NCBI GenBank assembly: GCA_002069125.1
Contig: MVZN01000029.1
Span: 1-33,861, forward strand
Direction of reading: 5' to 3'
Length of the DNA: 33,861 bases
DNA from: Spirochaetes bacterium ADurb.BinA120
GTDB lineage: Bacteria > Spirochaetota > UBA4802 > UBA5368
Shown here in pieces: positions 1,260-15,865 of the stretch. The notes below the pieces were generated by a model, which was not told where the DNA came from, made no database searches, and saw nothing but the letters and a program-made list of their open reading frames with translations. The position numbers and the translations under genes were made by a program. Within the stretch, counting starts at the first letter, position 1, and every line of letters starts with the position of its first letter.

Positions 1260-2075
1260 ATGGTCAACGAATACACGATGCTCAGCGAGGCGGTCTTCTG
1301 CACGCTGGACTTCGAGACAACCGGCGTGAATCCGGCGCTGGATCGCATAGTCGAAATCGGCATGGTCCGCTTCACGCTCGACGAAACGCTCGACACCTTC
1401 TCCACCCTCATCGATCCGGACCAGGAGATACCCGAGAGCGCCACCGAAATCCATGGCATAACCAACGATATGGTGTGCGGGGCGCCGCGCATGGACGCGG
1501 TATTGCCGGAGCTTAAGACCTTCATGGGGGACGCGACGCTGGTAATACAGAACCCGCGCTTCGACCTTACATTCCTCGAGGTCGCCTTTAAAAGGACCGA
1601 GCTCGGCGTTCCGCCGCTTTCGGCCTACGACACCGTGCGCCTGTCGCGCAAGACCTTTGTAAATTTTCCCAACTACCGGCTGGAAACGCTCTGCGCCAGG
1701 CTCGATATCGAGAGTACGGGCCATCATCGCGCGCTTGCCGACGCACGCTCGTGCATGGAGGTGTTCCGTAGGATAGTGCGCTTTCACGACGCGGACGGGA
1801 GCTGGACCATGAAAGACCTTACCCGCCTGCATGGGGACGCCATGCAGCCCCAGCTCTCGCGCAAGCAGAAGCGCCGAATGAACCTGGGCAACGACATCTA
1901 CATCGGAGACGTCGTAAAGATCCGATATATGGACGAGAGCGGGCGCGTTACCACGAGGCGCATCCTCCCCAAGGAGGTCGTCCGCCAGGGGAACAGGACC
2001 TATATTCACGCGTTCTGTTACATGCGAAACGAGGACCGCTATTTCAATACGCGGAGGATACTCAAGGTTTACTGA
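1260..2075 (+). CDS. DnaQ-like DEDDh exonuclease with C-terminal WYL-like domain
   Basis: This is a 3'-5' exonuclease of the DNA polymerase III epsilon type, followed by an extra domain. The DEDDh residues are all visible: D17 and E19 in LDFETTG, D102 in PRFDLTFLE, and H156 and D161 in HHRALADA. Residues 1-175 make up the nuclease. After a basic linker (around 198-208), residues 212-271 form a beta-rich tail with the pattern RRILPKEVV...YIHAFCYMRNEDRYFNTRRI, which resembles a WYL domain. WYL domains usually sense ligands or nucleic acid. The ATG at 1260 is chosen because AAAGGA lies 11 nt upstream; a GTG at 1194 is possible but has no ribosome site. The nuclease call is firm. The WYL assignment is by eye. 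Confidence 0.85.
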   Translation: MVNEYTMLSEAVFCTLDFETTGVNPALDRIVEIGMVRFTLDETLDTFSTLIDPDQEIPESATEIHGITNDMVCGAPRMDAVLPELKTFMGDATLVIQNPRFDLTFLEVAFKRTELGVPPLSAYDTVRLSRKTFVNFPNYRLETLCARLDIESTGHHRALADARSCMEVFRRIVRFHDADGSWTMKDLTRLHGDAMQPQLSRKQKRRMNLGNDIYIGDVVKIRYMDESGRVTTRRILPKEVVRQGNRTYIHAFCYMRNEDRYFNTRRILKVY

Positions 2076-2083
2076 GTGCAGTT

Positions 2084-2377
2084 TCAGTGTTCAGAGCAGT
2101 AGAGGTGCTTGAGGGTGCCGAGGAGCTCGGAGATCCTGGGGTCGCTGATCGAGTAAAACATAAAATTGGCTTCCTTGCGCCGGTTTACCATGTATATCTT
2201 CCGGAGCACGGTGAGGTGCTGGGAGATGTTGGAGATGGACGATCCAAATTCCTTCTCTATCTCGCCAACGGTCTTTTCTCCGTCCATGAGAAAACAGAGG
2301 ATCTTGAGACGGATGGGATGGGCGATCGATTTGAGGATCTCGCTTGTCTGATTTACCTGGTCATCCGAGAAAAGCAC
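2084..2377 (-). CDS. ArsR-family winged-helix repressor
   Basis: This is a small winged-helix DNA-binding protein of the ArsR/SmtB class. The signature is AHPIRLKILCFL, then TVGEIEKEFGSSISNISQHLTVLR, in which the second helix is the recognition helix, followed by a beta-wing with basic residues (VNRRKEANFMFYSI). The classical ELCVC metal site is absent. The only cysteines are one in helix 2 and one in the C-terminal LYCSEH, so it may sense something other than arsenite or be redox-responsive. A GTG start at 2377 is chosen because AGGAGG lies 8 nt upstream, giving 97 residues. The longer frame to 2446 would begin inside the likely promoter. It is convergent with the exonuclease gene (8-bp gap) and divergent from the PLP decarboxylase gene. 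Confidence 0.85.
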   Translation of the reverse strand: MLFSDDQVNQTSEILKSIAHPIRLKILCFLMDGEKTVGEIEKEFGSSISNISQHLTVLRKIYMVNRRKEANFMFYSISDPRISELLGTLKHLYCSEH

Positions 2378-2416
2378 AATTCGGCCCTCCTGACTCCAAT
2401 TGTTTAAGTATTCCAC

Positions 2417-2446
2417 TATCCAATAAAAAAGTAAATTAGCTGTCAA
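2417..2446 (-). promoter_or_regulatory. possible arsR-type gene promoter
   Basis: Reading the minus strand, a perfect TTGACA (2446-2441) is followed after 18 nt by TGGATA (2422-2417), a poor -10. The -35 is strong and the AT content is locally high. A partial dyad TATT-N9-AATA surrounds the -10, where an ArsR protein could bind. Confidence 0.3.
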
Positions 2447-2479
2447 TCCTTTTTCATATCCCTTCGCGCCATTCGATCA

Positions 2480-2541
2480 CCGGATTTCCGAGGAGTATGC
2501 GAGTATGTACGGATGAGAGAACCAAAGGGCCGGAAATCCGG
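2480..2541. other. divergent intergenic region with 11-bp inverted repeat
   Basis: The 420 bp between the ArsR gene and the PLP decarboxylase gene holds no convincing gene. It contains a perfect 11-bp inverted repeat, CCGGATTTCCG (2480-2490) and CGGAAATCCGG (2531-2541), with 40 nt between the arms. This could be a paired operator or a cruciform-forming element. No regulator can be assigned from sequence. Confidence 0.4.
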
Positions 2542-2704
2542 ATTTTCGGACGAGTCCTCCCTGGAGGCGCGCTTATGGAGGGCCCTTTTTTGGAATGTTT
2601 TCGGTGTATTTGCTACATTTTGGATTAACGCGCGCAAGGGTGTCGCGCCGTGTTTCCCGCCGCCGTCGCCGGGCCGGAATACAGGCGCGCCATTGTAAAA
2701 GTAC

Positions 2705-2732
2705 TTGCAAAAATGAATTTGATCAATTTTAT
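2705..2732 (+). promoter_or_regulatory. possible promoter of PLP decarboxylase gene
   Basis: TTGCAA (2705-2710), 16 nt, then TTTTAT (2727-2732), each matching 4 of 6 consensus bases, sit in a locally AT-rich stretch about 65 bp before the ATG at 2798. Confidence 0.3.
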
Positions 2733-2797
2733 GGGCGGGGGCCGTGCGGCGAAAGGGCCTTCCCATTTCCAGACTCCCTGGCAGGCGTTCGGACACC

Positions 2798-4516
2798 ATG
2801 AAGCTCTTCGAAGCGATTGAGGAAAAACGAACGACAGAGGTTCGGGCCGACCTCGAGCATCTGCGCAAGCTGTTTATCATGCCGGATTCCCCGGACAAGT
2901 TCCTGGAATTCGGTCACGAACTCCTCGACCTCATCCACACATTCTTCAAATCCAAGGGCGGAATTCACAGCGAGATATCGCTTCCCGAGCTTGCAAAAAT
3001 CTTTTCGGTGATGGAGATACCGCGCCATCCAAGCCTTCTTAAAGATATCCTGGGCGAGATCAAGTCCAAGGTCATCGCCCATTCGGTGAAGGTGGGAAAC
3101 CCCTATTACATCGGGCACATGACAAGCGCCATCCCCTATTTCATGATCCTTCTGGAGATGATTATAGCGGCCCTCAACCAGAACCAGGTGAAAATCGAGA
3201 CCGCCAAGGCCTCCACCTTCCTGGAGCGGGAGCTCATCGCCTGGATACACCGGCTCATCTTCGACCGTTCGCCGAACTTCTACCGCACGCATGTGCAGAA
3301 CCACCGCATAGCGCTGGGAAACGTGACGCTCGACGGCACCATGGCCAACCTTACCGCGCTAATGGTGGCTCGCAACAAGGCCTTCCCGGCCAGCGGGCGC
3401 TTCCCCGGTATCCGCAAGGCCGGCATCTACGACGCGTACCGGTATTATAACTGCGAAAGGGCCGTTATCCTGGTGTCGGCGCGCGGGCACTATTCAATCG
3501 AAAAGATCGCGCGTATCCTCGGGTTGGGAAACCACAACGTGATCAAGATTCCGGTCGATGCGGGAAACCGGATCGATATCGCGCGCCTTCGCCAGGTCTG
3601 CGCGCGAATCAGGGAGCGGAACGAGCGGCCCGGCGAAAAGACGAAGATCGTCGCGATAATCGGGATTGCCGGAACGACCGAAACAGGCAATATCGACGAT
3701 CTCGTCGAGCTTAGGCGCATCGCCGACGAGAACGGCACCTACTTCCATGTCGACGCGGCATGGGGAGGGGCGCTGCTTATCGTCGACAAGTATCGCCACC
3801 TTTTCAAGGGCATCGATCGCGCCGATTCGGTGACCTTCGACGCGCACAAGCTGATGTACTCGCCGCTCTCGATGGGAATGGTGCTCTTTCGAAACGAAAC
3901 GGCTCTAAACTACATCAAGCACGCCTCCAATTACATTATACGCCCCGACTCCGTCGACCAGGGGCGTTTTACCGTGGAGGGCTCACGTCCGTTCTCCTGC
4001 CTGAAGCCCTGGGTCACCTTTAAGATCTTCGGCAAGGAGGGTTTTCGCATACTGTTCGACCACGCCTTCGAGATAACCGGCGCGCTAAGGGACATCATTA
4101 CGCGTCACCCCGACTTCGAGGCGATGAATGTTCCGGAGATTTTCATATTCAATTACCGCTACGTGCCCAGGGGCATACGGCCCCGCCTCGACGCGCTCAT
4201 GCGGGATATCGACTCCGAGGCCGATCCCTACCGCGTAACCAAGCTCCTCAAGCGCCTCAGGCGCATAAACGAGGCCCTGAACGACCTGAATATCGAGCTC
4301 CACAGGGCCATCCGCCAGGAGGACAACAGCTTCGTGTCGCGCACCATGATGGAATCCACTCGCTACAATCCGCAGAAGATCGTGGTGCTCCGCGCGGTCA
4401 CCATCAACCCCCTCACCACGCCCGAGATACTGAACGAGATCGTCGAAGAACAGAGCGCCCTCGGCGCGCGGATATACAAATCGGAGTTCGCCGATATCCT
4501 TGAAAAACTACAGTAG
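2798..4516 (+). CDS. panP: group II PLP-dependent decarboxylase, PanP-like (aspartate 1-decarboxylase)
   Basis: This is a fold-type I pyridoxal-phosphate decarboxylase of the glutamate/aspartate decarboxylase group. The cofactor lysine is K351 in FDAHKLMYSP, and the Asp that pairs with the pyridine nitrogen is D319 in HVDAAWGG. The segment GHMTSAIPYF, followed by ALNQNQVKIETAKASTFLER, matches my memory of PanP, the alternative aspartate decarboxylase that makes beta-alanine when PanD is absent. A panB gene lies 13 kb away at 17242. At 572 residues it is close to the PanP family size. The ATG at 2798 is used; a GTG at 2744 would add 18 residues of unlikely composition. The C-terminal 100 residues carry charged helices. 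Decarboxylase is firm; aspartate as substrate is inferred, with glutamate or tyrosine as alternatives. Confidence 0.8.
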   Translation: MKLFEAIEEKRTTEVRADLEHLRKLFIMPDSPDKFLEFGHELLDLIHTFFKSKGGIHSEISLPELAKIFSVMEIPRHPSLLKDILGEIKSKVIAHSVKVGNPYYIGHMTSAIPYFMILLEMIIAALNQNQVKIETAKASTFLERELIAWIHRLIFDRSPNFYRTHVQNHRIALGNVTLDGTMANLTALMVARNKAFPASGRFPGIRKAGIYDAYRYYNCERAVILVSARGHYSIEKIARILGLGNHNVIKIPVDAGNRIDIARLRQVCARIRERNERPGEKTKIVAIIGIAGTTETGNIDDLVELRRIADENGTYFHVDAAWGGALLIVDKYRHLFKGIDRADSVTFDAHKLMYSPLSMGMVLFRNETALNYIKHASNYIIRPDSVDQGRFTVEGSRPFSCLKPWVTFKIFGKEGFRILFDHAFEITGALRDIITRHPDFEAMNVPEIFIFNYRYVPRGIRPRLDALMRDIDSEADPYRVTKLLKRLRRINEALNDLNIELHRAIRQEDNSFVSRTMMESTRYNPQKIVVLRAVTINPLTTPEILNEIVEEQSALGARIYKSEFADILEKLQ

Positions 4517-5531
4517 CATCGCCCCGTTTGCCCTCCCGCTTGTGTCCTTTGCCGCCGCGGCGTGCATTCTCCTGATTCCCTCAACGGCTTCCGCGGCCGA
4601 AAGAGAACGAAAAACCTACGCGCTCCTCGGGGGCGGCGCTCTTTGTTCCGTGGACGACGGCGGACTTACGCCCCTTCCAATCGGTCCGGGGGTGACCCGG
4701 TATGTCGTGGAGAATGGGGCGGTATTCTACGTGCGCGCCGAAGAGGGGCGGGTACTTGCCGGCCGCTGGTCCCCCGGCGCCGCATCCCCGGCGGAGCTCC
4801 CGCTGGATGTGGCGGGCGGAGAGCCGACTCGGCTGCGCGGTTCGGGCCACACGATATACGCCCTGTATGCCTCGGAGAAGAACGGCGCGGGGACCCTGTA
4901 TGCGGGCGACATCAACAGCGGCGAAGTGCGTGAAGCGCCCGGAGTGTACGATTTCACCCTCTACGACGGCCGGCCGGTCCTCCTGGAGCGCGGGGGCGAT
5001 GGCCTTCGCTGCGCCATAGGGGATACAAAAATACCGCTCCTTCCGGGGATCGGGGCAAAATTTGGCGACTGCGCGGATGGCCGGCTTTTCATCATATCGG
5101 ACGGGGAGCATACCGAGATAATCGATGCCGTCGCGGCCAGGGCCGTTTACCGGTACTCCGAGACCGCCGCCTATCGCGCGCCGACCACTCATAATCTCGA
5201 GCTGGAGGCCGTCGATGATACGATAGGGCCCCCATCCGGCCGGATGATTTTTTACCGGGTGATGATAAACGGCAGGGATGCAGGCCGCACGGACACCGGC
5301 CCCGCCGAAACGCGCCGCGTGTTCAGGCAATCCGTTGCGGCCGGGGAGTACATGGTGCTTGCGCCCGAGCGCTGGGAGCTCAATCTAAAAAGGGAGCGCT
5401 ACGAGAGGGCGAACAACATCCTTCAGCCGGAGCCCATGCGGCTATTTGTCCCGGAGGGGATCGTTCTGAAGGTGTCTATCAGTTTCGACGGGCGCTCGTA
5501 CAGGGTGAGCGCGTCGCCGGTTGTCGACTAA
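4500..5531 (+). CDS. exported protein of unknown function, possible beta-propeller
   Basis: I do not recognise the family. The protein has a clear Sec signal peptide (residues 1 to about 33: Lys near the start, hydrophobic run, cleavage near STASAAE). The mature part is beta-rich, with repeating short blocks such as YALLGGGALCSV, ARGRVLAGRW-like and TLYAGDINSGEV, as in degenerate propeller blades. The last 90 residues contain a PEGIVLKVSISFDGR segment typical of a beta-sandwich. The start is TTG at 4500, inside the end of the decarboxylase gene (17-bp overlap), which implies translational coupling. GGAG lies 13 nt upstream. No enzyme motif is visible. The overlap suggests a shared operon but not a shared pathway. 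Confidence 0.65.
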   Translation: MKNYSSIAPFALPLVSFAAAACILLIPSTASAAERERKTYALLGGGALCSVDDGGLTPLPIGPGVTRYVVENGAVFYVRAEEGRVLAGRWSPGAASPAELPLDVAGGEPTRLRGSGHTIYALYASEKNGAGTLYAGDINSGEVREAPGVYDFTLYDGRPVLLERGGDGLRCAIGDTKIPLLPGIGAKFGDCADGRLFIISDGEHTEIIDAVAARAVYRYSETAAYRAPTTHNLELEAVDDTIGPPSGRMIFYRVMINGRDAGRTDTGPAETRRVFRQSVAAGEYMVLAPERWELNLKRERYERANNILQPEPMRLFVPEGIVLKVSISFDGRSYRVSASPVVD

Positions 5532-5656
5532 TTCCCGCCCCGGACCTCCACGCATTATGGAGCGGTGCGACGCTTCTCGAAGCGGAAGTCCGGGAATCCT
5601 CGACCGGCGGATGGGGATGTGCGGAGGCTCGCGCTCCATCGGCATGCTGAAAAACG

Positions 5657-5688
5657 AAAGAGGCGATGATCGCTATCATCGCCTCTTT
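5657..5688 (-). terminator. rho-independent terminator, 14-bp stem
   Basis: A perfect inverted repeat, AAAGAGGCGATGAT, loop CGCT, ATCATCGCCTCTTT, lies between convergent genes. On the minus strand it is followed by CGTTTTTC, so it best terminates the minus-strand gene that ends at 5711. It may also stop transcripts coming from 5531. Confidence 0.85.
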
Positions 5689-5710
5689 GGAATATGGCCC
5701 TGTCGGACAT

Positions 5711-6568
5711 CTATTTAAAATCGTTCAACTGCTCGGTCTTCTTCTCGTCGGTTTCGACGATCTCCTGGATGTGCTTGTACTCCGGCGAATCCACGCCATA
5801 TTGCATTTCGGTCGCCTTGAGCATGTTGCGGTTTTTAAGCTGCTTGTACTTAAGCGCCTCCTCTTCGGACCCGAGGCGGAACTTGCCCACCATGTTTTCC
5901 ATGAAGCCGTAGCAACTGGTGAGATAGCGGTACGCCCACACGTCCTTGCTGTTCGCCTCGGTGAGGGAAATATAGCGCTCGAGGATGGGAATGCAGGGCT
6001 TCAGGTTCTGTACGTCATACTGGCAGGACACGTATACCTGGTATAGCCTCGACTGAAAGTTTACGAACTTCTGGTCCTTGCGCACCTCGGTGAACTGGAC
6101 CTCGTCGAGCTTGTTGATTGACCTGGTAAAGAAGGTGACCGCCTTCATCTTGGCGTCGTAGCGAAGCTTCGCTATCTGCCTTGCCTCCTGGTTTTTACGG
6201 TCGATCTCCTGCCAGTACCAGCGCTCGTTAAGGTTCTTCTTGTCCTTGTTGGCGGCGGTGAGCTTGGCGACCTCGTTTTCCATGTCTTCGAGGATGTCGA
6301 GGCCCGTTGAATATTCATCTATGGCCACTTTTAAAAGGTTCTCCGCGTATTCGCGGCTTAGCTTCTGGAGGTCGCGCATGGCCTGTACGTATGGTTTGAA
6401 GTCCTTTACGCGCCAGCCGCCGATGTCCTCGACCGGCTGTGCCGATTCCTTCTTGCCCTCCGCAGGGGCCTTGGGGGCCTCCTGGGCATATAGCGGCATA
6501 AACGCGGCAATGAAGGCCAGGATAGCCGTTCCGGTTATCAGCCTCATGGATGTAATTGCTCGTCTCAT
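5711..6568 (-). CDS. exported helical (TPR-like) protein of unknown function
   Basis: The family is not recognised. A signal peptide spans residues 1 to about 30 (MRRAITSMRLITG, then a hydrophobic run ending LYAQ/EAPK). The rest is strongly helical and charged. Aromatic and alanine spacing in segments such as AVTFFTRSINKL and CIPILERYISLTEANS, then WAYRYLTSCYGF, resembles TPR helices. The ATG at 6568 is chosen over longer frames because GAGG lies 6 nt before it and the signal peptide begins there. It is the last gene of the minus-strand envelope cluster, 84 bp after the SpoIID fusion gene. A scaffold or periplasmic adaptor role is plausible but unproven. Confidence 0.65.
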   Translation of the reverse strand: MRRAITSMRLITGTAILAFIAAFMPLYAQEAPKAPAEGKKESAQPVEDIGGWRVKDFKPYVQAMRDLQKLSREYAENLLKVAIDEYSTGLDILEDMENEVAKLTAANKDKKNLNERWYWQEIDRKNQEARQIAKLRYDAKMKAVTFFTRSINKLDEVQFTEVRKDQKFVNFQSRLYQVYVSCQYDVQNLKPCIPILERYISLTEANSKDVWAYRYLTSCYGFMENMVGKFRLGSEEEALKYKQLKNRNMLKATEMQYGVDSPEYKHIQEIVETDEKKTEQLNDFK

Positions 6569-6651
6569 AAAGAACCTCTTTATCCGGTGAATGATATATG
6601 CGTGCGCATGGACGTATATATGGAATATATCGGTCCGCCGCGGGATAAAAT

Positions 6652-8661
6652 TCATTTTTTTTCGGATAAAGCGCCTTTCGTCCGCCCGAGGATGCCGAGA
6701 GCCGCCTGTGCGGCCCTCGCGCCCGTGCCGCCCCTTAGTGCCACGAATACGGCCCGGTCGCCCGCGCCCCCCAGAAAGAGCCCGTAGCCGGCCAGCCTGT
6801 TGCTTCCGGAGAGCACCGTCGCCGTTTTGCCCCACGGGGCCGCATTGGCATCGGCCGGGCGTTTTGCCATATCGTTCCCGGCGGTCCCCGATATCATGGT
6901 CTGGAACAGCGCACGGGCGATGATGTCCCGCCGCTCGCCGGAAAGGCGAAGGGCGGGATTAGGGGGGGCGTCCGGGTATACGAGGCGCGCGAGCGCGATC
7001 GCGTCGCGCACCGAAAATCTCACCCGGTAATCGAGCCCGGCGAGAAGCCTGGCGAATTCGTCGGGCCCCGAGACGGGCGGAAGCTCCACGCGGATTCCCG
7101 CCTTAACAAGGGAGGCGCAAAAGCGGCGGAGGGAGGCCATGCCGATCTCGGAATGGAGCGATGCGAAGAAGAGATTGCAGGAATTGGCCAGCGCCCCTTC
7201 CATGCCGGTTTCTCCGTGGCCCTCGGGAGTCCAACACCGCTCCGGAAGCGGAGGGCCTGCGCGCCCGGCGCAGCGGTATCGGTATGCGTCGAATAGGTCG
7301 GGCCGCTCCACGGCGCAGTGGAGCGCGACGAAGAGCTTGAAGATCGACCCGGCCGGAAGCTTTCGGTGTTCGAAGGCCGGGTGGCTTGCCTCCGTTATCG
7401 CTCCGCTTGCCGTGTCGAACAGCACATACGAGACCTCCGGCGGCGAAACGCTCACCCGTGCGTCCCCGCGCTCGAAGCGGATGCCCGGGTAATAGTGGGC
7501 AAGTATCTCGTATCGCGAAAATCCGAGCCGCGCGAGCTCCAGGGCCCCGTGCTGGCAGAGCCCCGCCCCGTGGCCGCTGCCGCGCCCGGTGAAGACAAAG
7601 GCCTTTTCGTTCGCTTCGGAGGAGGTCTCGACTATGTAATCGTTGCTTTTTAGAAAGTTCCACCCCTTGCGGCGGTTAACGCGCAGCCGGAAATCCTCAG
7701 CGGCGAAGCTGTAGAGCGAGCCCCCGTAACGGATGTCCACCCGGCGCGAAGGCTCGTCGATTTGGAGCGTAACTCCGGCTTTTTGTGTAGTGTCGCGGAT
7801 GGACAGGATGGGAGGAAGCTCCGCGGCCCCTATCCTGGCCCTCCAGTCCCCCGGCCCGCAGAGGGCCGTTGCGGTCTCGACGAGACGGTCGCTCACTCCG
7901 CCGCAGGAGGCCCCGGCGCGGCCGAAGACGCGTTCGCCCAGGGTGCGGCCCCCGCATACGGCGTGGAAGTGCGCGCCGCACGGAAGAGAACCGGGATCGA
8001 TGCGCCATGCATGCGCGTGGGCGTCTGCGGGGCCGGCGAGCCCGCGGTATACGACACAGTGGGCAAGGTCGCACGCGTCGAAGCCTTCGTGGGCGCGTCG
8101 TGGGCCCTTTAGCCTAACGGCGATGAGAAGGGCGAGCGCGTCAAGCGCCTCCTCCGAATGTGGGGGCACGGGGCCATATTCGGCGCGGGCCGCGTCGAGC
8201 GCATAGCGCGACAGGCTCTCCGTAACGACGAGTTCGATTTTACCCGCCCCGGCCCGGATGGTTAGAGGGAGGGGGTAGCGCCGGAGTTCGTTGCCCACCC
8301 GGGCCTCGAACGAGCGGTCCGGGCCGCAGGTGTACATCACGAGCGAGAACTGTCCTTTGAAATCGCCGATATCGGTCGAAAGGCCCCATCCCCCCGGCAA
8401 GGGCTCTATGCGTGCCTCTCTTATCGGCGGGCCAATGCTGCCTCGAGGCTCTTCGACGCGGGCGCCCTCCGGAAAGCTCAGGCGCACCGGGTCAATCTTT
8501 CCCTCCTGTAGTAGGCGCAGGGGTTTGGAGAGGATGTTTACGCGAATGAGGCGATCCGCGGCAAGCTCTCCGGCGGATATGCGGCAGGGGCTTTTGGGGG
8601 CCGCAAGTGCGATGAGAAAAAACGCCGCGAACGCGGCCATTCCCCTTTTTTTTATTGACAT
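6652..8661 (-). CDS. SpoIID-like glycan hydrolase fused to SxxK transpeptidase-like domain
   Basis: This exported protein of 669 residues joins two wall-active folds. Residues 1 to about 25 form a signal peptide or anchor. Residues about 140-400 match SpoIID/LytB: a candidate catalytic E148 in VVTESLSRYAL, a cysteine/histidine stretch (DACDLAHCVVYRG), and the hallmark GRGSGHGAGLCQHGALELA (H364) followed by EILAHYYPGI. SpoIID proteins are lytic transglycosylases acting on denuded glycan strands. From about 410 onward it resembles penicillin-interacting enzymes: S439-I-F-K442, S494-C-N496, and K612-T-A where KTG is expected. The third motif is therefore altered, and activity is uncertain. Start: ATG 8661 gives the signal peptide; ATG 8703 lies within the palindrome. 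It sits 222 bp downstream of the macroglobulin gene. Confidence 0.8.
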   Translation of the reverse strand: MSIKKRGMAAFAAFFLIALAAPKSPCRISAGELAADRLIRVNILSKPLRLLQEGKIDPVRLSFPEGARVEEPRGSIGPPIREARIEPLPGGWGLSTDIGDFKGQFSLVMYTCGPDRSFEARVGNELRRYPLPLTIRAGAGKIELVVTESLSRYALDAARAEYGPVPPHSEEALDALALLIAVRLKGPRRAHEGFDACDLAHCVVYRGLAGPADAHAHAWRIDPGSLPCGAHFHAVCGGRTLGERVFGRAGASCGGVSDRLVETATALCGPGDWRARIGAAELPPILSIRDTTQKAGVTLQIDEPSRRVDIRYGGSLYSFAAEDFRLRVNRRKGWNFLKSNDYIVETSSEANEKAFVFTGRGSGHGAGLCQHGALELARLGFSRYEILAHYYPGIRFERGDARVSVSPPEVSYVLFDTASGAITEASHPAFEHRKLPAGSIFKLFVALHCAVERPDLFDAYRYRCAGRAGPPLPERCWTPEGHGETGMEGALANSCNLFFASLHSEIGMASLRRFCASLVKAGIRVELPPVSGPDEFARLLAGLDYRVRFSVRDAIALARLVYPDAPPNPALRLSGERRDIIARALFQTMISGTAGNDMAKRPADANAAPWGKTATVLSGSNRLAGYGLFLGGAGDRAVFVALRGGTGARAAQAALGILGRTKGALSEKK

Positions 8662-8683
8662 TGGGGCGGAACGTCGGTATATT
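8655..8683 (+). promoter_or_regulatory. near-consensus sigma70-type promoter for the 35-codon gene
   Basis: TTGACA (8655-8660), exactly 17 nt, then TATATT (8678-8683) form an almost ideal housekeeping promoter on the plus strand. It points into the gap between the SpoIID fusion gene and the macroglobulin gene, against both of them. The -10 lies inside the 38-bp palindrome, so a bound repressor would block it. Confidence 0.75.
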
Positions 8684-8712
8684 ATGAGTGAGCGCTCACT
8701 CATAATATACCG
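8675..8712. promoter_or_regulatory. 38-bp perfect palindrome, TetR-type operator
   Basis: The two 19-nt arms (8675-8693 and 8694-8712) are perfect reverse complements, with no loop. The core TGAGTGAGCGCTCACTCA has the TGAnTGA-N4-TCAnTCA layout of several TetR-family operators, for example that of Bacillus FadR. It covers the plus-strand -10 and the 5' region of the minus-strand SpoIID fusion gene, so one protein could control both directions. No TetR gene is in the window, so the regulator must be encoded elsewhere. Confidence 0.75.
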
Positions 8713-8765
8713 GGACGGAAAATCCCCCGGGGGGTGGGCCGGAATTATTATACCGGAGGCGTGTT

Positions 8766-8873
8766 ATGTTTACCAGAATCGCGTATGTCATTTTTTCGTT
8801 TCTGTATCAAATCATCATCATCCCTTACTACAAGGCAAGGGGCCTGGAGGCCGCGGCGGAGTGCCGCGCTTGA
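8766..8873 (+). CDS. 35-residue single-pass membrane peptide
   Basis: A short frame starts at ATG 8766 with GGAGG (8755-8759) ideally spaced at 6 nt, and ends at TGA 8871-8873. The peptide has a hydrophobic stretch at about residues 5-22 (IAYVIFSFLYQIIIIPYY) followed by a basic/acidic tail, as in small membrane proteins. It has its own strong promoter, operator and terminator, which argues for a real gene despite its size. The family is not recognised. It could instead be the relic of a longer gene. It lies inside the envelope cluster in the opposite orientation, so its function may be linked to that cluster or to envelope stress. Confidence 0.55.
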   Translation: MFTRIAYVIFSFLYQIIIIPYYKARGLEAAAECRA

Positions 8874-8890
8874 GCGGCACTCCTATTTCT
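8858..8890 (+). terminator. terminator of the small membrane peptide gene
   Basis: A perfect 10-bp stem, GGAGTGCCGC (8858-8867) and GCGGCACTCC (8874-8883), with loop GCTTGA that includes the stop codon, is followed by TATTTCTT. On the plus strand this is a good intrinsic terminator. On the minus strand it falls just after the macroglobulin stop but lacks a T-run, so macroglobulin transcripts may read through toward the SpoIID fusion gene. Confidence 0.7.
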
Positions 8891-11800
8891 TCTCCACCGT
8901 GAATCGCGCCGGAACCGCCCATCCCTGTATGGAGGGCTCGTACATGCATTCCACGCGGGATGGTTTTACGAGGAAATTCCCGGGAAGCTCCGCGCGCATA
9001 ATGTAGCCTATCTCGCAGGTTTCCCCCTTGCGTACGCGTGTAAAGAAGAACACCATTCGATTATCCCGCCGCTCGACGTGGGAGTATGGGCCGTAGTCGC
9101 CGTAGGCGTCGTTCATAACGACCTCGAAACCCGCCGGGAGGTAGTCCTCCAGCACCAGGTATTCGAAGTCGTCCTGTGCGCGGAAGCGAAGCTTTACCAG
9201 TATCTCGTCCCCCACGCGGACCGGCGCGCTCTTGGAGATGGCCTGCGGCACCATGTACTCGTTGTTGTTGACGTCCCGTACGCGGGTGACCGCGTGAAAG
9301 CTGCGCGAAAGCCCTATGCCGTTTTCGAGCGCGCGGATGCCGCGCTCCTCGGACTTAAAGAGCGACATGAGTCCGGAGCTCTTGAAATACAGGTTGCCCC
9401 GGAGCGTAATGTCGAAACTCACCTCGCTTCCGGCGCTTCCATCGGCCGTTAGGGTGTACGCCCTGGCCGCATCCGCCGGAGATAGGCTGACGCGCCGCGT
9501 TAGCGCCGAGAGCTCCTTCATGGAAGAGGTGTCGTAGTCGATCGAGGCGGCCGGCTTTCCGTCGAGCGAAAAGGACGCCCTGCCTCTCTCCGCGCCGCCG
9601 AAGCCCGAGACCTCCAGATGGCGGCACGAGGCCAGTATGACGGCCGCGGTCTCCTTGGTCGAGTTCCAGCGGTCGTCCATTCCGCGCCTGGAGAGCGAGC
9701 TTAGTATCTGCGACGGAATCGGCGAGCGGTCCCCCGCGATTACGAGCGTTTCGAGCACCTGCGCGGTAAGCTCCACGCTTCCGCCCTGCCAGCCCCAGGC
9801 GTGCGATGGCTGGGCCTCCCAGTATATGCCGCGGCCGTCGCGCTTCTGCATATTTCGTAGCGCGTCTATCGCGCGCGGCAGGGTCGATTCGATGCGTTCC
9901 TTTTCGTGGGCCGGAAGGTTCCGTATATTTCGGCCCAGAGCGGCTGCGCGCACAAGGTACGCGAGCGTGTAGGCAGTGGGGTTTCGGCGCCCCGATATGT
10001 CCCTGAAGGCGGGGTCGCTCCATCTCCCATGGAGCGCGTAGACGTACAGAAGGTGCGCGGCGGCGTCGTGGTCGTCGCCGGCCGCCGCGAGCATCCGTCC
10101 GACGGCCTCCAGGCCGTTCTCCACGCGATTGGCGTCTACCGTTCGGCCGAGCCGTCGGGCAGTGTGAAGCGCGTAAAGCGCGTAGCAGGTAAGGAACTCG
10201 TTTCCGCGGTCGCCGCTCCACCATCCCCAGCTTCCGTCGTCGTTCTGCGAGCGCTGTACGTTCTCGAGGCCCGTGGCCGTCAATTCCTCCACCTTGAGGC
10301 CGCTTAAAAGCCCATCCATGCCCTTTTTGGCGAGGAGCGTCTTAAGGGTGAGCAGCGGCAGGAAACGGCTGATGTTCTGCTCCACGCAGCCGTATGGATA
10401 TTCCGCAAGGTACTTCGAAGCCTTGACGAGGCGCGTAATCGGCCCGGGATTCAGCGATATGACCATCTCGGATGGAACGAAATCGAAGTCATCGGCCTGG
10501 GGGGGAGGCTTAAGAGCTACGGTCCTGTTTTCGGCCATGTCGCCCGCGCCGTAGAGCGAGTAGGGCACGCCCCGGCTCTGGATCGGTATGGTGAGCGCGA
10601 GAGCGTCGCGTGCGGCGGCGTCGGAGGTGGCCGTAAAGAGAAGCTTAATTCTGTCGCCGCCCTCGGGCGCTTTTATCGTATAATAGGCGCGCGCCGAGCC
10701 GAACGCGGGCAGGCTGATGCGCACCGACTCGTCCGGCCGCACCGTCGAGCCGTCGGCCTTAAGTTCGGTGGCCACATCCGGAAGCCCGCGCGTAGTGTTG
10801 CTGTTTACTATTCCGACCAGGCCTACGGTGTCGCCCTCCACCATAAAGCGGGGCTTGCCGAGGCGCGCGATGAGGTCCTGGGTAACCAGGAGTTCGGCGG
10901 TGCGTTCGCCGACGCGTCCGGCCGGGTCGTGTCCGCGCGCCGTCAGCCGCCAGGTGGTCAGGTTGTCGGGAAGGTCGAAGCTCACCTCGGCCCGCCCGTC
11001 GTAGCCCGTGCGTATATTCGCCTTCCAGAAGGCGGTGTCCTCGAATTTCTCGCGCACCTTCACCTTGCCGTCCTTGGCGGCGCCGGCAAGCATGGTGATG
11101 GGATACGAGTAATTGGTGAGCACCCAGTTCGAGATCTTCGCGTAGAAAAAGTCGAGCATTTTGGGGGTGTGGTCTCTACGTATGGAGTAGATCGCCTCGT
11201 CCACCACGCCGAGGGAGAGGTCGGCCCGAAGAGGCCTGCCGTTTTCGTCGTCCACTTTAAGGCGCACGGTCGCCTTTTCCCCGGGCATGTATTTCTCCTT
11301 CGCCGGGGCTATGCTTATCATGATACGCGTATCGGCGTCGGGAAGCGTCACCCCGGCCGTGCCTGTAAAGAGAGCGCGTCCCCGCTGCATGGTGGCGGTG
11401 ATGAAGCAGTTGGGCGCGTATTCCTCCTTAATGAGCATTTTTACCGGCATGACGTTTCCGTTCATCCGCACCACCCTCTTTTCGTAGACGTCGCGCCCCT
11501 CCACGGTAAGGCAAACATAGGCGTCCGGAAACCGGCTTTTTAGAAGGCAGGTGACCTCGCCCGGCCTGTCGAGCGTGGACCTGTCGACGGAGAGCTCGAG
11601 ATTTTTGAAGCGCGAGTCCACGCGCGCGCCGAGAGAGCTGTACACCCACACCACGCGCGAAGCGGTGATCAGATTCTCTTTGCGGTCGCTCGCGGTGGCG
11701 AGTATGTCGAATTCGCCATAGAGATCGAACTTCTTTGGAAGCTCGAGCCGGTAGAAGCCCTTTGCGTCCGTATTGAATTTGCGCTCGAACACTGGCGCCT

Positions 11801-14255
11801 TGTCGTGCACGTAAACGCGCTGCCAGGGCTTCCAGATGTAGCGAAGCACCTTGAGCTCGACAGGCGCGCTTACTGGCGTGCCGTCGTGGGCGATCGTCCT
11901 TATCTCCACAATTTTTCTTTCGTCGTCCGCAAAGAAGGCCTGCGTCGGGTTGATCTTGATATAGAAGTCCCCGCGCCCCACCTTTACGCTTGCGCGGGAG
12001 GTGATGCTGACGTTCGTCCTGTCCACTATGGTGGCTTCCAGCGTTATCTCGCGATCGTACGGAAAGCTTCCGCAGGAGAGCCTGAGCGCGGCCACGCCGT
12101 TGTCGTCCAGGTAGCGTTCGCCCTCCAGCTTTATCCGATTGTAGGTTTCGCCAGGGCCGTAATCCTCCTCCCACCAATAGGTGGTGTCGGTGTCGCGCAG
12201 GCGGTTCTCGTAAAAGCGGTATTTGATTAGCGCGCCCTTGAGCGGAGCTCCGAAGAAGTATTTGGCGTCGACACGGAATTCCGCCGTGTCGCCGTTGATA
12301 AAGTATGGACGGGCGGGGGTGATGTCGATCCGGAATTCGGGCTTTCGGTATTGTTCCACGTAAAAGCTCCCCATGCCGTACATCCTGTCGGCCGATTCGC
12401 CGGCCTGTATCCGGTATTCGCCCAGACGCGCTTTGTCATCGAGCTTTATGGAACCGCTCGCGGTGCCCCACTCGTCGAGCCTTGCGCTTCCGCTTTGTAC
12501 GGTCTCGTCGAATTGCGCGTTTCGGATCTCGTAACGAACCGGCGTCGACGCGAGCATGGAGAAGCGCTTCTCCCGCTTTTTGGCGATTATCTTATAGTGC
12601 ACAGTATCGCCCGCGCGGTATACGGGACGGTCGGTATAGATAAAGAACTTCGTTTCCTCCCTGGCGAAGGAATAGGGTGAGCCGGTGCTGGCGAAGGCGT
12701 AGCTGTTGTCGGGGGCCACCGCCAGCACGGAGAGGTGCTGGTCGCTCTTGAGCTTATGATGGTATACGCCCGAGGCGTCGGTCTTTCCGCGGTGCACTAT
12801 CCTGACCGGCAGGTCCTCCAGGCGCTCCGGCGGCTTCGTAGCCTCGCGGCGTTCGCGCTCCTCCCTCTTCACCGGGGTGTTGTCGAACACCGTGATCGAC
12901 GCGTTGGCCACGGGGTCGTTCGTCACGAGGCTTGTGACATAGGCGAATATGGATTCGCGCGAGCGTTTGACCACAAGCCCGGTCGAGGTTACGGTGAAGA
13001 ACTTGCGGTCGACGGCGCGCCCGGCGCCGGACACCTCCACGCAGTATGCCCCGGCGGGCAGCGGTTCGCTTAAGTCCATGGACTGGTAGCGCCACTCGTA
13101 GGGCTGGAAGTCCTCGATCGGAAACTCCCACTCGCGCAGGCTCGCCAGTTTGGCCGCGCGGACGTCGAGCGTATTGGCGTCGACGCGGCCGGACAGCACC
13201 ACGCCCATGGGGACCCGGTAGATCCGGGCCCGCAGTTTTTCGAGGCGGATGGCCTTTATGTTTAATTCGACCTTCATCCCGGGCGCGAAGGTATAGCGAT
13301 AGGCGTACACCTGAACCTGGGGCTCCTTGGGCCTCACGGTAAAATCGAAGCCCTTTATCTCCATGCCCTCCTTGACGGCGATCGGCGGGGTGTTATAGGC
13401 GTAGAAGCCCTCGTGCGAAAGCGAAACCGAGTAGGTGCCCGGTTTGATGTCGTCTATCCGGTAGCTTCCGTCGTGATACGAGACCGCGCCGTGGACTACC
13501 CTTCCCTTAAGGGTGATATTCATGTTAACGGCCGGACTGTCCACGTCCTGAATTTTAATGACGCCGGAGAGGGAGGCCGGGCGGAAGAGCATCATAGGAA
13601 GATCGAAGCGCTCGCCGCTTTTAAGGCGCTGGATTACGGCTGTTTCGGCGATGTAGCCGGTTTTGGAAAACGCTATCGAGTACGAACCCTCGGCCAGGCG
13701 GGCGAAGTAGTACCTGCCCGATGAATCACTCGTTCCAATGATGGGGCGGCGTTCGGTTTCGGCGTATTCGCCTTCATTCTCCGCGGAGAGCCTGACCTCC
13801 ACGCCGGACAGGGGCTTTCCGGACGAATCGCGGACAACGCCCTGAAGCAGGGCCTCGCGCTTAAGCTCGATCGAATATCTGCCCGAGGCGATCGACTCGG
13901 TCGTGACATACGGCACGTATCCGTCGGCGCTCACCTCAATGCGGTAGCGGACGTGTTTTATGAAATCGTCTATCCGAAACCTTCCGCTCGAATCCGTCTC
14001 GAGACGGTAGTAGCCCATGCCCATGTTAACGTTCTTTATCTCGACGGTCGCGCCGCGGATTCCCTTTCGCGTCGCGGCGTCCACTACCGTTCCCTCTATC
14101 ACCTCGACGCGGGAAAGCTCGGCCGAATCGGCCTTTTTGTAAACTGTCCTGCCGTCGGGCAATACCTCGCGGCCGGTCGTGGCGCACGCAAGCGCGCCCG
14201 CGAGCAGTATTACAAGCGTGGAGATGGATGAAGCCTTTTTCATTCTGGAACGCAT
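8883..14255 (-). CDS. bacterial alpha-2-macroglobulin lipoprotein (YfaS/MagD-like)
   Basis: This giant periplasmic protease trap has 1790 residues. It starts with a lipoprotein-type signal (ALAC, Cys24). Three carboxypeptidase-regulatory-like beta-sandwiches follow at about 52-118, 136-205 and 228-288 (for example GTVVDAATRKGIRGATVEI and GVVRDSSGKPLSGVEVRL), then macroglobulin domains including the classic YTDRPVYRAGDTVHYK at about residue 540. The thioester is intact: C1290-V-E-Q in YPYGCVEQNISRFLPLL, with the alpha-toroid thioester domain after it. Family proteins snare proteases by cleavage of a bait region and covalent capture. Start: ATG 14255 with GGAG 9 nt upstream. It lies 34 bp after the AMMECR1-like gene. 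The N-terminal sandwiches are additional to the usual MG domains. Confidence 0.93.
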   Translation of the reverse strand: MRSRMKKASSISTLVILLAGALACATTGREVLPDGRTVYKKADSAELSRVEVIEGTVVDAATRKGIRGATVEIKNVNMGMGYYRLETDSSGRFRIDDFIKHVRYRIEVSADGYVPYVTTESIASGRYSIELKREALLQGVVRDSSGKPLSGVEVRLSAENEGEYAETERRPIIGTSDSSGRYYFARLAEGSYSIAFSKTGYIAETAVIQRLKSGERFDLPMMLFRPASLSGVIKIQDVDSPAVNMNITLKGRVVHGAVSYHDGSYRIDDIKPGTYSVSLSHEGFYAYNTPPIAVKEGMEIKGFDFTVRPKEPQVQVYAYRYTFAPGMKVELNIKAIRLEKLRARIYRVPMGVVLSGRVDANTLDVRAAKLASLREWEFPIEDFQPYEWRYQSMDLSEPLPAGAYCVEVSGAGRAVDRKFFTVTSTGLVVKRSRESIFAYVTSLVTNDPVANASITVFDNTPVKREERERREATKPPERLEDLPVRIVHRGKTDASGVYHHKLKSDQHLSVLAVAPDNSYAFASTGSPYSFAREETKFFIYTDRPVYRAGDTVHYKIIAKKREKRFSMLASTPVRYEIRNAQFDETVQSGSARLDEWGTASGSIKLDDKARLGEYRIQAGESADRMYGMGSFYVEQYRKPEFRIDITPARPYFINGDTAEFRVDAKYFFGAPLKGALIKYRFYENRLRDTDTTYWWEEDYGPGETYNRIKLEGERYLDDNGVAALRLSCGSFPYDREITLEATIVDRTNVSITSRASVKVGRGDFYIKINPTQAFFADDERKIVEIRTIAHDGTPVSAPVELKVLRYIWKPWQRVYVHDKAPVFERKFNTDAKGFYRLELPKKFDLYGEFDILATASDRKENLITASRVVWVYSSLGARVDSRFKNLELSVDRSTLDRPGEVTCLLKSRFPDAYVCLTVEGRDVYEKRVVRMNGNVMPVKMLIKEEYAPNCFITATMQRGRALFTGTAGVTLPDADTRIMISIAPAKEKYMPGEKATVRLKVDDENGRPLRADLSLGVVDEAIYSIRRDHTPKMLDFFYAKISNWVLTNYSYPITMLAGAAKDGKVKVREKFEDTAFWKANIRTGYDGRAEVSFDLPDNLTTWRLTARGHDPAGRVGERTAELLVTQDLIARLGKPRFMVEGDTVGLVGIVNSNTTRGLPDVATELKADGSTVRPDESVRISLPAFGSARAYYTIKAPEGGDRIKLLFTATSDAAARDALALTIPIQSRGVPYSLYGAGDMAENRTVALKPPPQADDFDFVPSEMVISLNPGPITRLVKASKYLAEYPYGCVEQNISRFLPLLTLKTLLAKKGMDGLLSGLKVEELTATGLENVQRSQNDDGSWGWWSGDRGNEFLTCYALYALHTARRLGRTVDANRVENGLEAVGRMLAAAGDDHDAAAHLLYVYALHGRWSDPAFRDISGRRNPTAYTLAYLVRAAALGRNIRNLPAHEKERIESTLPRAIDALRNMQKRDGRGIYWEAQPSHAWGWQGGSVELTAQVLETLVIAGDRSPIPSQILSSLSRRGMDDRWNSTKETAAVILASCRHLEVSGFGGAERGRASFSLDGKPAASIDYDTSSMKELSALTRRVSLSPADAARAYTLTADGSAGSEVSFDITLRGNLYFKSSGLMSLFKSEERGIRALENGIGLSRSFHAVTRVRDVNNNEYMVPQAISKSAPVRVGDEILVKLRFRAQDDFEYLVLEDYLPAGFEVVMNDAYGDYGPYSHVERRDNRMVFFFTRVRKGETCEIGYIMRAELPGNFLVKPSRVECMYEPSIQGWAVPARFTVEKK

Positions 14256-14289: not shown

Positions 14290-14877
14290 TCAGCGTATGG
14301 TCAGCGCACGGAATATTTCGCACTGGACTATCGTTCTCGATCCAAGCAATCTATTGAGTCGGTCCCAGCTTTTTATTTCGGATGGGACCAGCACCAGCCT
14401 CTCGCCGGATTCGAACTGTATCATGAGCCCGTGGCGGGAAAAATCAACCCGATTTATATCCTCCACGGATACCGGCTCGTCCGCCACGGTGAGGATTATC
14501 GCGGTGTCCTCGAGCTCCGCAATGTCGAGCGGACTGTGGCGCGGGTCGGCATAGAGGGCGCCGCCGATGTATTCCTTAAGCGTCAGCACGGCGTCGTCCG
14601 AAACGTGGTGGAAGGCGCCGAAACATCCTCTCACCCTCGAGCCCTTCTGGAAAGTGACAAAAAGCCCCAGCTTTCCGTAATAACGGGGAATGCCGGCAGG
14701 AGCCGGGCGTTTGCATTCGGATCCGGTAAGACTTGCATGTGTGACGCAGCGCATCCACTCGCGTAGTTCGATCCCTCCGGGCCCGCGGGCATAATCCGCC
14801 CATTCGCGGAGCGGGTCGTCGGCCGGCGCCTGCCGGAGCGCGAGGAGGGCCAGGGCGATGATCAGGGGGCGCGTCAT
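14290..14877 (-). CDS. exported AMMECR1-like protein
   Basis: The protein has 195 residues, with an apparent signal peptide (MTRPLIIALALLALRQAPADD). The body matches the AMMECR1 fold: GLFVTFQKGSRVRGCFGAF corresponds to the conserved FVT...LRGCIG block, and ADPRHSPLDIAELEDTAIIL to the DpRF.P....EL.dl segment. AMMECR1 proteins are normally cytoplasmic and of unclear biochemical role, so export would be unusual. Its start overlaps the VanW-like stop by 4 bp (ATGA), which implies tight coupling. The family call rests on those two motifs. Export is inferred from the N-terminus alone. Confidence 0.7.
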   Translation of the reverse strand: MTRPLIIALALLALRQAPADDPLREWADYARGPGGIELREWMRCVTHASLTGSECKRPAPAGIPRYYGKLGLFVTFQKGSRVRGCFGAFHHVSDDAVLTLKEYIGGALYADPRHSPLDIAELEDTAIILTVADEPVSVEDINRVDFSRHGLMIQFESGERLVLVPSEIKSWDRLNRLLGSRTIVQCEIFRALTIR

Positions 14878-15581
14878 TTAAGGTACACCGCCGGATAGTA
14901 GTCGCGGTAGAGCAGAAATGATTCGACGAATCTATCGCCGGAGTATTTGTTTCTGTAAACGTTTACGGTTATCCCGCCCCGAATCCGGCGGCCGTCATCC
15001 TCGACCGGATGCTCCGACTCCTCCTCCTCCGCGACAAGCTCGTACCGAAACGGCGGAGGGCTTTCGGCCCGAATTCGTATCGCGAGGCTCTTCCCGTCCA
15101 TTGTAGCGTCTATAAAAAGCCTCTGCTCGTATGGGTTGCGCATGCGGAGGTCCTTTTTCCCGTATTTAATCGTGGCATCCAGTCCGGGCGGGACGTATGT
15201 CACCGGCTGATAGTGGCGATGGCGCTCGGTGATCGAGCAGCCCGCGGCGAGGAGGGCATTGAAAAGCGTCGAGGAGACCTGGCAAAGTCCGCCGCCGGGC
15301 TCGTGACGGACCTCGTCGCGGTACAGCACGGCGCCGCTCCTGTAGCCGTTCCGTATCGAGCCCTCGCCAACGGTTTCGTTGAACGAAAGGATCGATTTAG
15401 GCGGGATGACGCGGCCGTTGAGCTTCGAGCAGGCCAGGCGAATATTATGCCGCACGGCCTCGTCCTGGTCCTCTATGGAGGTGGCGAACGATGCGATGAC
15501 CTCGGGTTGGCCGTCCCCGGCGTAAGCGTAAAGCCCGGGGATAAGGAAAAGCGCCATGACCGGAAATAGTTTCGAGAGCAT
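14874..15581 (-). CDS. VanW-family exported protein
   Basis: VanW-family proteins occur in vancomycin-resistance loci and widely in other bacteria; their biochemical role is unknown. Recognisable motifs are SILSFNETVGEGSIRNGY, then EPGGGLCQVSSTLFNALL (C100), and a beta-strand segment with MRNPYEQRLFI. The N-terminus MLSKLFPVMALFLIPGLYAYAGDG is a signal peptide. ATG 15581 is chosen because GGAGG lies 9 nt upstream; a frame open to 15719 is rejected. It is the first gene of the minus-strand envelope cluster. The conserved Cys-His pattern (GGGLCQ...RHRHY) suggests a catalytic or metal-binding site. Confidence 0.88.
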   Translation of the reverse strand: MLSKLFPVMALFLIPGLYAYAGDGQPEVIASFATSIEDQDEAVRHNIRLACSKLNGRVIPPKSILSFNETVGEGSIRNGYRSGAVLYRDEVRHEPGGGLCQVSSTLFNALLAAGCSITERHRHYQPVTYVPPGLDATIKYGKKDLRMRNPYEQRLFIDATMDGKSLAIRIRAESPPPFRYELVAEEEESEHPVEDDGRRIRGGITVNVYRNKYSGDRFVESFLLYRDYYPAVYLK

Positions 15582-15635
15582 TGGGCCGTTCCTCCGACGG
15601 AATGGGAGCGCTTGGTCGTCCGCTCCAGCGTATCC

Positions 15636-15664
15636 AGAGTAGTTACCTCGCCCGGATGGGTCAA
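15636..15664 (-). promoter_or_regulatory. possible promoter of the envelope cluster
   Basis: On the minus strand, TTGACC (15664-15659), 17 nt, then TACTCT (15641-15636), precede the VanW-like start by about 55 bp. The -35 is good and the -10 weak. The rest of the 394-bp gap to the plus-strand loader gene holds several GAGGAC/GTCCTC half-sites near 15690-15740 but no gene. Confidence 0.35.
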
Positions 15665-15865
15665 CCATAAAGCGGTGATTGGGGGAGGCGAGGACGCTCT
15701 TGGGGAATGTCCTCACCACTCGGAGGAAGAGGGTCCTCAGGTATTAAGCTAATTTCGGGGATTCTGCCCTCTTTTGCCCAGGCTTAATGGCGGTTGCGCA
15801 ACCCTCTGCCTGCCGGGGGAAGTTTTGGTCTTCGTTGGCCGGTCTGTGAGTCTTGGGATTTGCGG

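Follow-up and report, generated by a model that had tools for sequence, protein, structure and literature searches.

The locus and its genes

The window analysed here is the whole of contig 29 (33,861 nt) in a 3.5-Mb genome of 216 contigs from Spirochaetes bacterium ADurb.BinA120. Its open reading frames and their Pfam matches give a minus-strand order of VanW, AMMECR1, macroglobulin and a SpoIID::SxxK fusion. The cluster begins with a secreted VanW-domain protein (14874..15719, minus; PF04294, 8.9e-43), whose place is conserved by synteny, followed by a secreted AMMECR1-domain protein of 195 aa (14290..14877, minus; PF01871, 1e-16), the two genes overlapping by 4 nt. The AMMECR1 gene lies directly upstream of the macroglobulin, also by synteny, and most loci have VanW and AMMECR1 genes ahead of the macroglobulin. 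Both can be noted as constant neighbours of this macroglobulin class (the window and L033-L054); AMMECR1 domains are otherwise known from cytoplasmic proteins. DUF2135 and DUF2138 were not found among the window genes scanned, DUF1175 has zero matches in the window's genome, and the genes flanking the macroglobulin include no class A penicillin-binding protein (PBP).

The macroglobulin itself (8883..14255, minus) is a secreted alpha-2-macroglobulin of 1790 aa with three CarboxypepD_reg domains followed in the Pfam assignment by MG2, BRD, A2M, TED and bMG10. It carries a lipobox and, judging from its sequence, is probably lipid-anchored. An intact thioester, CVEQ, had been read from the letters at residue 1290, and the cysteine does fall exactly there (residues 1290-1293, 10377-10388, minus). 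The CXEQ thioester of type I A2M is thus present in the window and is likewise kept in the window-class loci that were read.

The fusion gene (6652..8703, minus) encodes 683 aa as annotated. Its true start is likely M15 (8661), 14 codons past the annotated one, as this residue opens a Sec-type signal and the codons before it fall within a 36-bp perfect palindrome (8677..8712). This palindrome, read from the sequence, is a candidate operator, and a pattern search of the genome gave a single occurrence of its core. Between the macroglobulin and the fusion lies a genus-specific hydrophobic ORF of 35 aa, MFTRIAYVIFSFLYQIIIIPYYKARGLEAAAECRA (8766..8873, plus), with GGAGG just 5' of it, which is retained at full length and 69-74% identity in four other species of the genus (kept in 5/5 species). 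The stretch 8655-8883 on the plus strand looks like a complete small gene, with TTGACA-17-TATATT (11/12), the palindrome, the GGAGG, the 35-aa ORF and a terminator-like stem. The stem-loop past the macroglobulin stop was considered as a macroglobulin terminator and rejected, as its T-rich tail is on the plus strand only.

A fusion of two wall-enzyme folds

The original prediction held that the last gene joins a SpoIID lytic domain to a transpeptidase-like domain with SxxK, SxN and KTA motifs, and profiles, structure prediction and structural alignment all bear this out. Single-sequence NCBIfam matches are SpoIID_LytB (1.5e-16) and pbp2_mrdA (1e-8), and the fusion family profile matches solved SpoIID (E 2.9e-10) and PBP (E 2.4e-13) chains through separate halves. 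An AlphaFold2 model built on an 18-row alignment of natural homologues has a mean pLDDT of 82 and a pTM of 0.82. The catalytic motifs of both halves are retained in 18-22 orthologues; across 18 of these, every complete row has the same G375/G377/H378/G381/G386, S453, K456, SCN and KT-T. This conservation, together with the synteny, excludes chance. A frameshift artefact as the source of the fusion was ruled out by about 20 uninterrupted orthologues.

The SpoIID half (residues about 140-414; 7462..8286, minus) matches Clostridioides difficile SpoIID 5i1t by Foldseek with a probability of 1.00 and a TM score of 0.60 by target length, and can be profile-aligned with 5i1t/5txu and with 4rwr. In the profile alignment E175 corresponds to the catalytic glutamate and H205, C211, H215 and C216 to the zinc-site residues, within the E101/H134/C140/H145/C146 region of the C. 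difficile enzyme; among 18 orthologues E175, C211 and C216 are invariant and H205 and H215 mostly kept. The motif GSGHGAGLCQHGA (residues 375-387) is also conserved. These residues suggest that the half is probably a zinc-dependent lytic transglycosylase. By curated models it is a distant member (TIGR02669 at 61.2 bits against a cut-off of 83.3, and no PF08486 match in the fusion), so that it is described here by fold and residues only. Known SpoIID enzymes cut the denuded glycan strands produced by amidases (PMC6221140).

The second half (residues about 419-683; 6655..7449, minus) is a PBP2-derived SxxK domain. The check proposed for it, a structural match to the PBP fold, gave a clear answer, with a VIA-align Z of 25.2 to Acinetobacter baumannii PBP2 and an rmsd of 3.0 over 248 residues. 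The motifs are SIFK (453-456), SCN (508-510) and KTAT (626-629), and C478, C490-W491, GHG and SCN make up a PBP2-type signature. The third residue of the KTG motif is A, S or G across orthologues, A or S in most, and one sub-branch of fusions retains KTGT. The PF00905 score is 14.9 bits for the window fusion against a cut-off of 22.1 and 40.6 bits for an orthologous fusion in another genome (G017). In PBPs generally, SxxK domains acylate on D-Ala-D-Ala.

Linkage to the macroglobulin

The fusion is present in 25 genomes of the order, in a few of them as pieces at contig ends only. A neighbourhood survey, proposed as a check of recurrent linkage, found it on the same strand as a macroglobulin, directly after it or one gene further, in 22/25 genomes, which rules out chance adjacency. 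In 12 genomes the two frames overlap or are no more than 6 nt apart, as judged by a mechanical choice of starts. The three exceptions have their macroglobulin elsewhere (G006, G008) or on another contig (G023); downstream of two window-class macroglobulins (G014, G035), in turn, no fusion is found. In the genus of the window, a gap of 137-179 nt and the short ORF on the opposite strand separate the two genes, so that in this genus macroglobulin and fusion may not share a transcript. Some loci have a gene of about 480-520 aa directly 3' of the macroglobulin (L036 14648-16126, L047 6448-7893, L132 7237-8802); it stands between macroglobulin and fusion in L036 and L047, and no fusion was found in L132.

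Most of the contigs compared are metagenome-assembled, and the named relatives are metagenome-assembled genomes of uncultured Spirochaetes, in line with the spirochaete origin given in the original prediction. Among 84,980 species genomes scanned, only Spirochaetes had the full fusion; the scan relied on two short patterns taken from the fusion alignment, so distant forms may be missed.

Two classes of macroglobulin

A second type of macroglobulin in the same order adjoins PBP1c genes. In a 28-row tree the pbpC-linked macroglobulins and Escherichia coli YfhM fall on one side, and the window-type, the spirochaete mag-type and Citrobacter YfaS on the other, the split having support of 100/98. 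This places the window protein in the yfa/mag-type class, as originally proposed, and the class of the macroglobulin matches that of its partner when tree and neighbours are compared. The original prediction had also taken the PbpC link of the other class as pointing the same way. As a parallel pairing of a macroglobulin with a wall enzyme this stands, but since the pbpC-linked macroglobulins form a separate branch, theirs is a parallel arrangement and not the same system. In two loci a macroglobulin, a pbpC-like class A PBP and a SpoIID gene are clustered (L058 in G085, 1878-8899; L135, 10128-13634); in L058, where unknown bases interrupt the class A PBP gene, the protein is pieced together from two frames, and in L135 the SpoIID gene is convergent.

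The published division of macroglobulins into type I and type II rests on the thioester (PMC5764988). CXEQ is missing from several pbpC-linked macroglobulins and present in all the complete spirochaete mag-type ones that were read, and a thioester-based division consequently agrees with neither the partner nor the macroglobulin tree.

Split operons in other spirochaetes

In at least six genomes of other spirochaetes, mag-like operons carry the parts of the fusion as separate genes. They encode DUF1175 (PF06672, 1e-59), a macroglobulin and DUF2135, together with SxxK and SpoIID proteins that each stand alone (PF00905, 5.6e-20, and PF08486, 2.8e-18, respectively) and an HExxH-like protein of 217-245 aa. 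The SxxK half of the fusion matches the lone SxxK family with P 99.7%, and the SpoIID half matches the lone SpoIID family with P 100% and E 3e-49. GCVEQ is retained in all complete split-operon macroglobulins read. The HExxH family leans towards M1-type gluzincins (E 3e-4), with the first histidine lost in two genomes. The parts can also be joined differently, as in a Brevinematales genome where HExxH is fused ahead of SpoIID and the SxxK gene stands apart. The outlying branch of the SxxK tree also includes lone SxxK proteins, about 260-275 aa long, that have no macroglobulin nearby (L062, L063, L064); queuosine-type genes and an MCE-like protein adjoin those of L062 and L063, and a small HExxH protein is also close to that of L062.

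YfaQ as a relative in reversed order

The original prediction saw the fusion as a domain-permuted version of E. coli YfaQ (DUF2300). The reversal is real, as the parts of YfaQ run SxxK-SpoIID-HExxH and those of the window protein SpoIID-SxxK; the C-terminal HExxH stretch of YfaQ had no place in that earlier account. The YfaQ profile used here consists of two sequences, that of E. coli and one divergent Citrobacter copy from a plasmid search, which is 51% identical and sits in an intact cluster of DUF2138-DUF1175-A2M-DUF2300-DUF2135; no YfaQ homologues were found in viral contigs. In E. coli K-12 the neighbouring yfaS carries a pseudogene annotation.

The SxxK part of YfaQ matches the window family with P 95% and E 2e-8 by hhalign, against P 34% and E 4e-4 for ordinary PBP2, a lean and not a proof, as the compared profiles differ in depth. 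In a 53-row SxxK tree, ordinary PBP2, FtsI and class A sequences lie on one side (98/97) and the fused, split and lone domains and YfaQ on the other. There YfaQ joins the fusions at 98/99, a placement of moderate weight given its very long branch. Forcing YfaQ to group with the ordinary PBPs was rejected (p-AU 0.016); a single clade of fusions that excludes YfaQ was not rejected by the AU test. The SpoIID part of YfaQ (PF08486, 7e-6) matches the split SpoIID family with P 94.5%; its direct match to the SpoIID half of the fusion is weak (P 7%), and the link to the window therefore runs through the split spirochaete genes. Profile comparison of the YfaQ C-terminus with the split HExxH family likewise gave a weak match (P 17%, E 0.0015).

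Kinship with YfaQ thus stands for the SxxK domain through hhalign, tree and AU test, and does not extend to formal membership of the family. PF10062 (DUF2300) had no match above cut-off in 118 genomes, those with the fusion included, and the window fusion as a DUF2300 member by model was rejected on that ground. The further proposal that DUF2300 is itself a wall-remodelling enzyme does not follow, because the key motifs of YfaQ are degenerate: the E. coli and Citrobacter copies have SLWK/SVWK, SCG and KTW and lack GHGxGxxQ. Residues 519-540 of YfaQ (L102) read HEYLHLAF-GYP-GLDE-YIE, a gluzincin-like stretch that is the best-kept catalytic-looking one in a protein whose wall-enzyme motifs are degenerate.

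A SpoIID/transpeptidase architecture for YfaQ is already published. A 2025 study (PMC12282094) describes an N-terminal transpeptidase-like and a C-terminal SpoIID-like part, a predicted Sec export, wider cells upon deletion and a phenoprint that ties the gene to mepS, mepK and nlpI. The word macroglobulin is absent from its main text, and neither the split genes nor the HExxH part is mentioned in the text available. In the open-licence literature the term DUF2300 was not found, and SpoIID and macroglobulin occur together only in a single, unrelated study of proteomics.

A probable wall partner for a protease trap

Why macroglobulins stand next to wall enzymes in bacteria has been a question ever since the YfhM-PbpC pairing was noticed. 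We consider it rather probable that the locus is a yfa/mag-class macroglobulin system which has as its wall partner a fusion with a new domain order and which serves in wall repair. This reading is computational, being built on export signals, domain folds, catalytic residues and linkage, and activity, interaction and localisation are predictions throughout. On entry of proteases and wall-damaging enzymes into the periplasm, the macroglobulin would be cleaved and trap the protease, and the fusion partner would meanwhile act on the damaged wall. If the known chemistry of the two folds applies, the SpoIID half would clear away denuded strands, and the peptides that remain would be closed or trimmed by the SxxK half. 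Such a role extends to the window pair the repair hypothesis put forward for A2M-PBP1c or YfhM-PbpC (PMC5764988 and PMC4498604); in the other macroglobulin branch, the YfhM-PbpC pair would serve the same end in parallel.

An unlikely alternative, though the most serious one, is that the SxxK domain is a sensor like BlaR1 or MecR1, whose binding of wall peptides or beta-lactams would act as a switch for the SpoIID half or for the macroglobulin. A domain that lacks the usual N-terminal parts of PBPs, with KTG altered to KTA or KTS in most fusions, would suit a sensor, as would YfaQ, which retains SxxK and loses SxN and KTG. Yet SxxK, SCN and KT-T are present in all complete fusions, one sub-branch has an unaltered KTGT, the closest fold is PBP2, and the family profile leans to PBP2 over BlaR1 (E 0.23 for the latter). 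Less probable still is an assembly aid, by which the partner would open and reseal the wall locally for the placement or passage of a macroglobulin of about 200 kDa and have no role in repair. A cutter and a cross-linker in a single chain would fit local opening and closing, and so would a fusion directly after the macroglobulin with frames that often overlap; the genes, however, lie apart in three genomes, and pbpC-class macroglobulins, which are about as large or larger, do without such a partner. That the fusion is an ordinary wall-turnover enzyme, beside the macroglobulin by accident, is very improbable, for the 3/25 unlinked fusion genes and the two window-class macroglobulins that lack a fusion are set against a linkage that spans several families of the order, and against the split or otherwise joined forms that other spirochaetes and Enterobacteria have next to macroglobulins of this class.

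The split and variously fused genes are independent genomic evidence that YfaS-type macroglobulins have a wall partner of their own, and they point to the domains worth testing. On balance we also lean slightly towards the view that the two macroglobulin branches are set by their wall enzyme and not by the thioester, one having pbpC and the other an SxxK and SpoIID toolkit with or without HExxH. The toolkit would have been joined as SpoIID-SxxK in the window, as SxxK-SpoIID-HExxH in YfaQ and as HExxH-SpoIID in Brevinematales, and the enterobacterial YfaS line would have lost its thioester afterwards.

Comparison with known systems

Taken singly, the two halves of the fusion have well-known counterparts. 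C. difficile SpoIID shares the fold and catalytic residues of the first half and is a separate protein with a role in sporulation; PBP2-type transpeptidases share those of the second and are separate proteins with a role in elongation.

Among macroglobulin systems, YfhM-PbpC (type I A2M with PBP1c) likewise sets a thioester macroglobulin beside an SxxK wall enzyme. Its macroglobulin, however, is of the other branch (100/98), and its enzyme is a class A PBP with a glycosyltransferase and no SpoIID part. The Mag complex of Pseudomonas (magABCDEF) resembles the window in combining a macroglobulin with periplasmic partners in one operon, whereas MagD has no thioester and the window locus has none of the DUF genes of the mag operon. 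The split mag-like operons (L056, L059, L061, L071, L216, L219) come closer, with a thioester macroglobulin of the same class near an SxxK gene and SpoIID adjoining in most; unlike the window fusion, SxxK and SpoIID are separate genes there, and the operons carry DUF1175, DUF2135 and usually an HExxH-type gene.

YfaQ is, like the window fusion, a partner of a YfaS/mag-class macroglobulin with an SxxK domain of the same branch and a SpoIID part. It differs in its reversed order, its degenerate SxN, KTG and GHGxGxxQ motifs and its extra C-terminal HExxH. The neighbours in yfaA-yfaT-yfaS-yfaQ-yfaP are DUF2138, DUF1175 and DUF2135 in place of VanW and AMMECR1, and the YfaQ-linked macroglobulin (Citrobacter copy) lacks the CXEQ that the window protein has as CVEQ. 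As the parts of the fusion match those of YfaQ in reversed order, the role of this E. coli protein of unknown function, with its cell-width phenotype, beside the macroglobulin is now testable, and YfaQ gains a concrete three-part reading.
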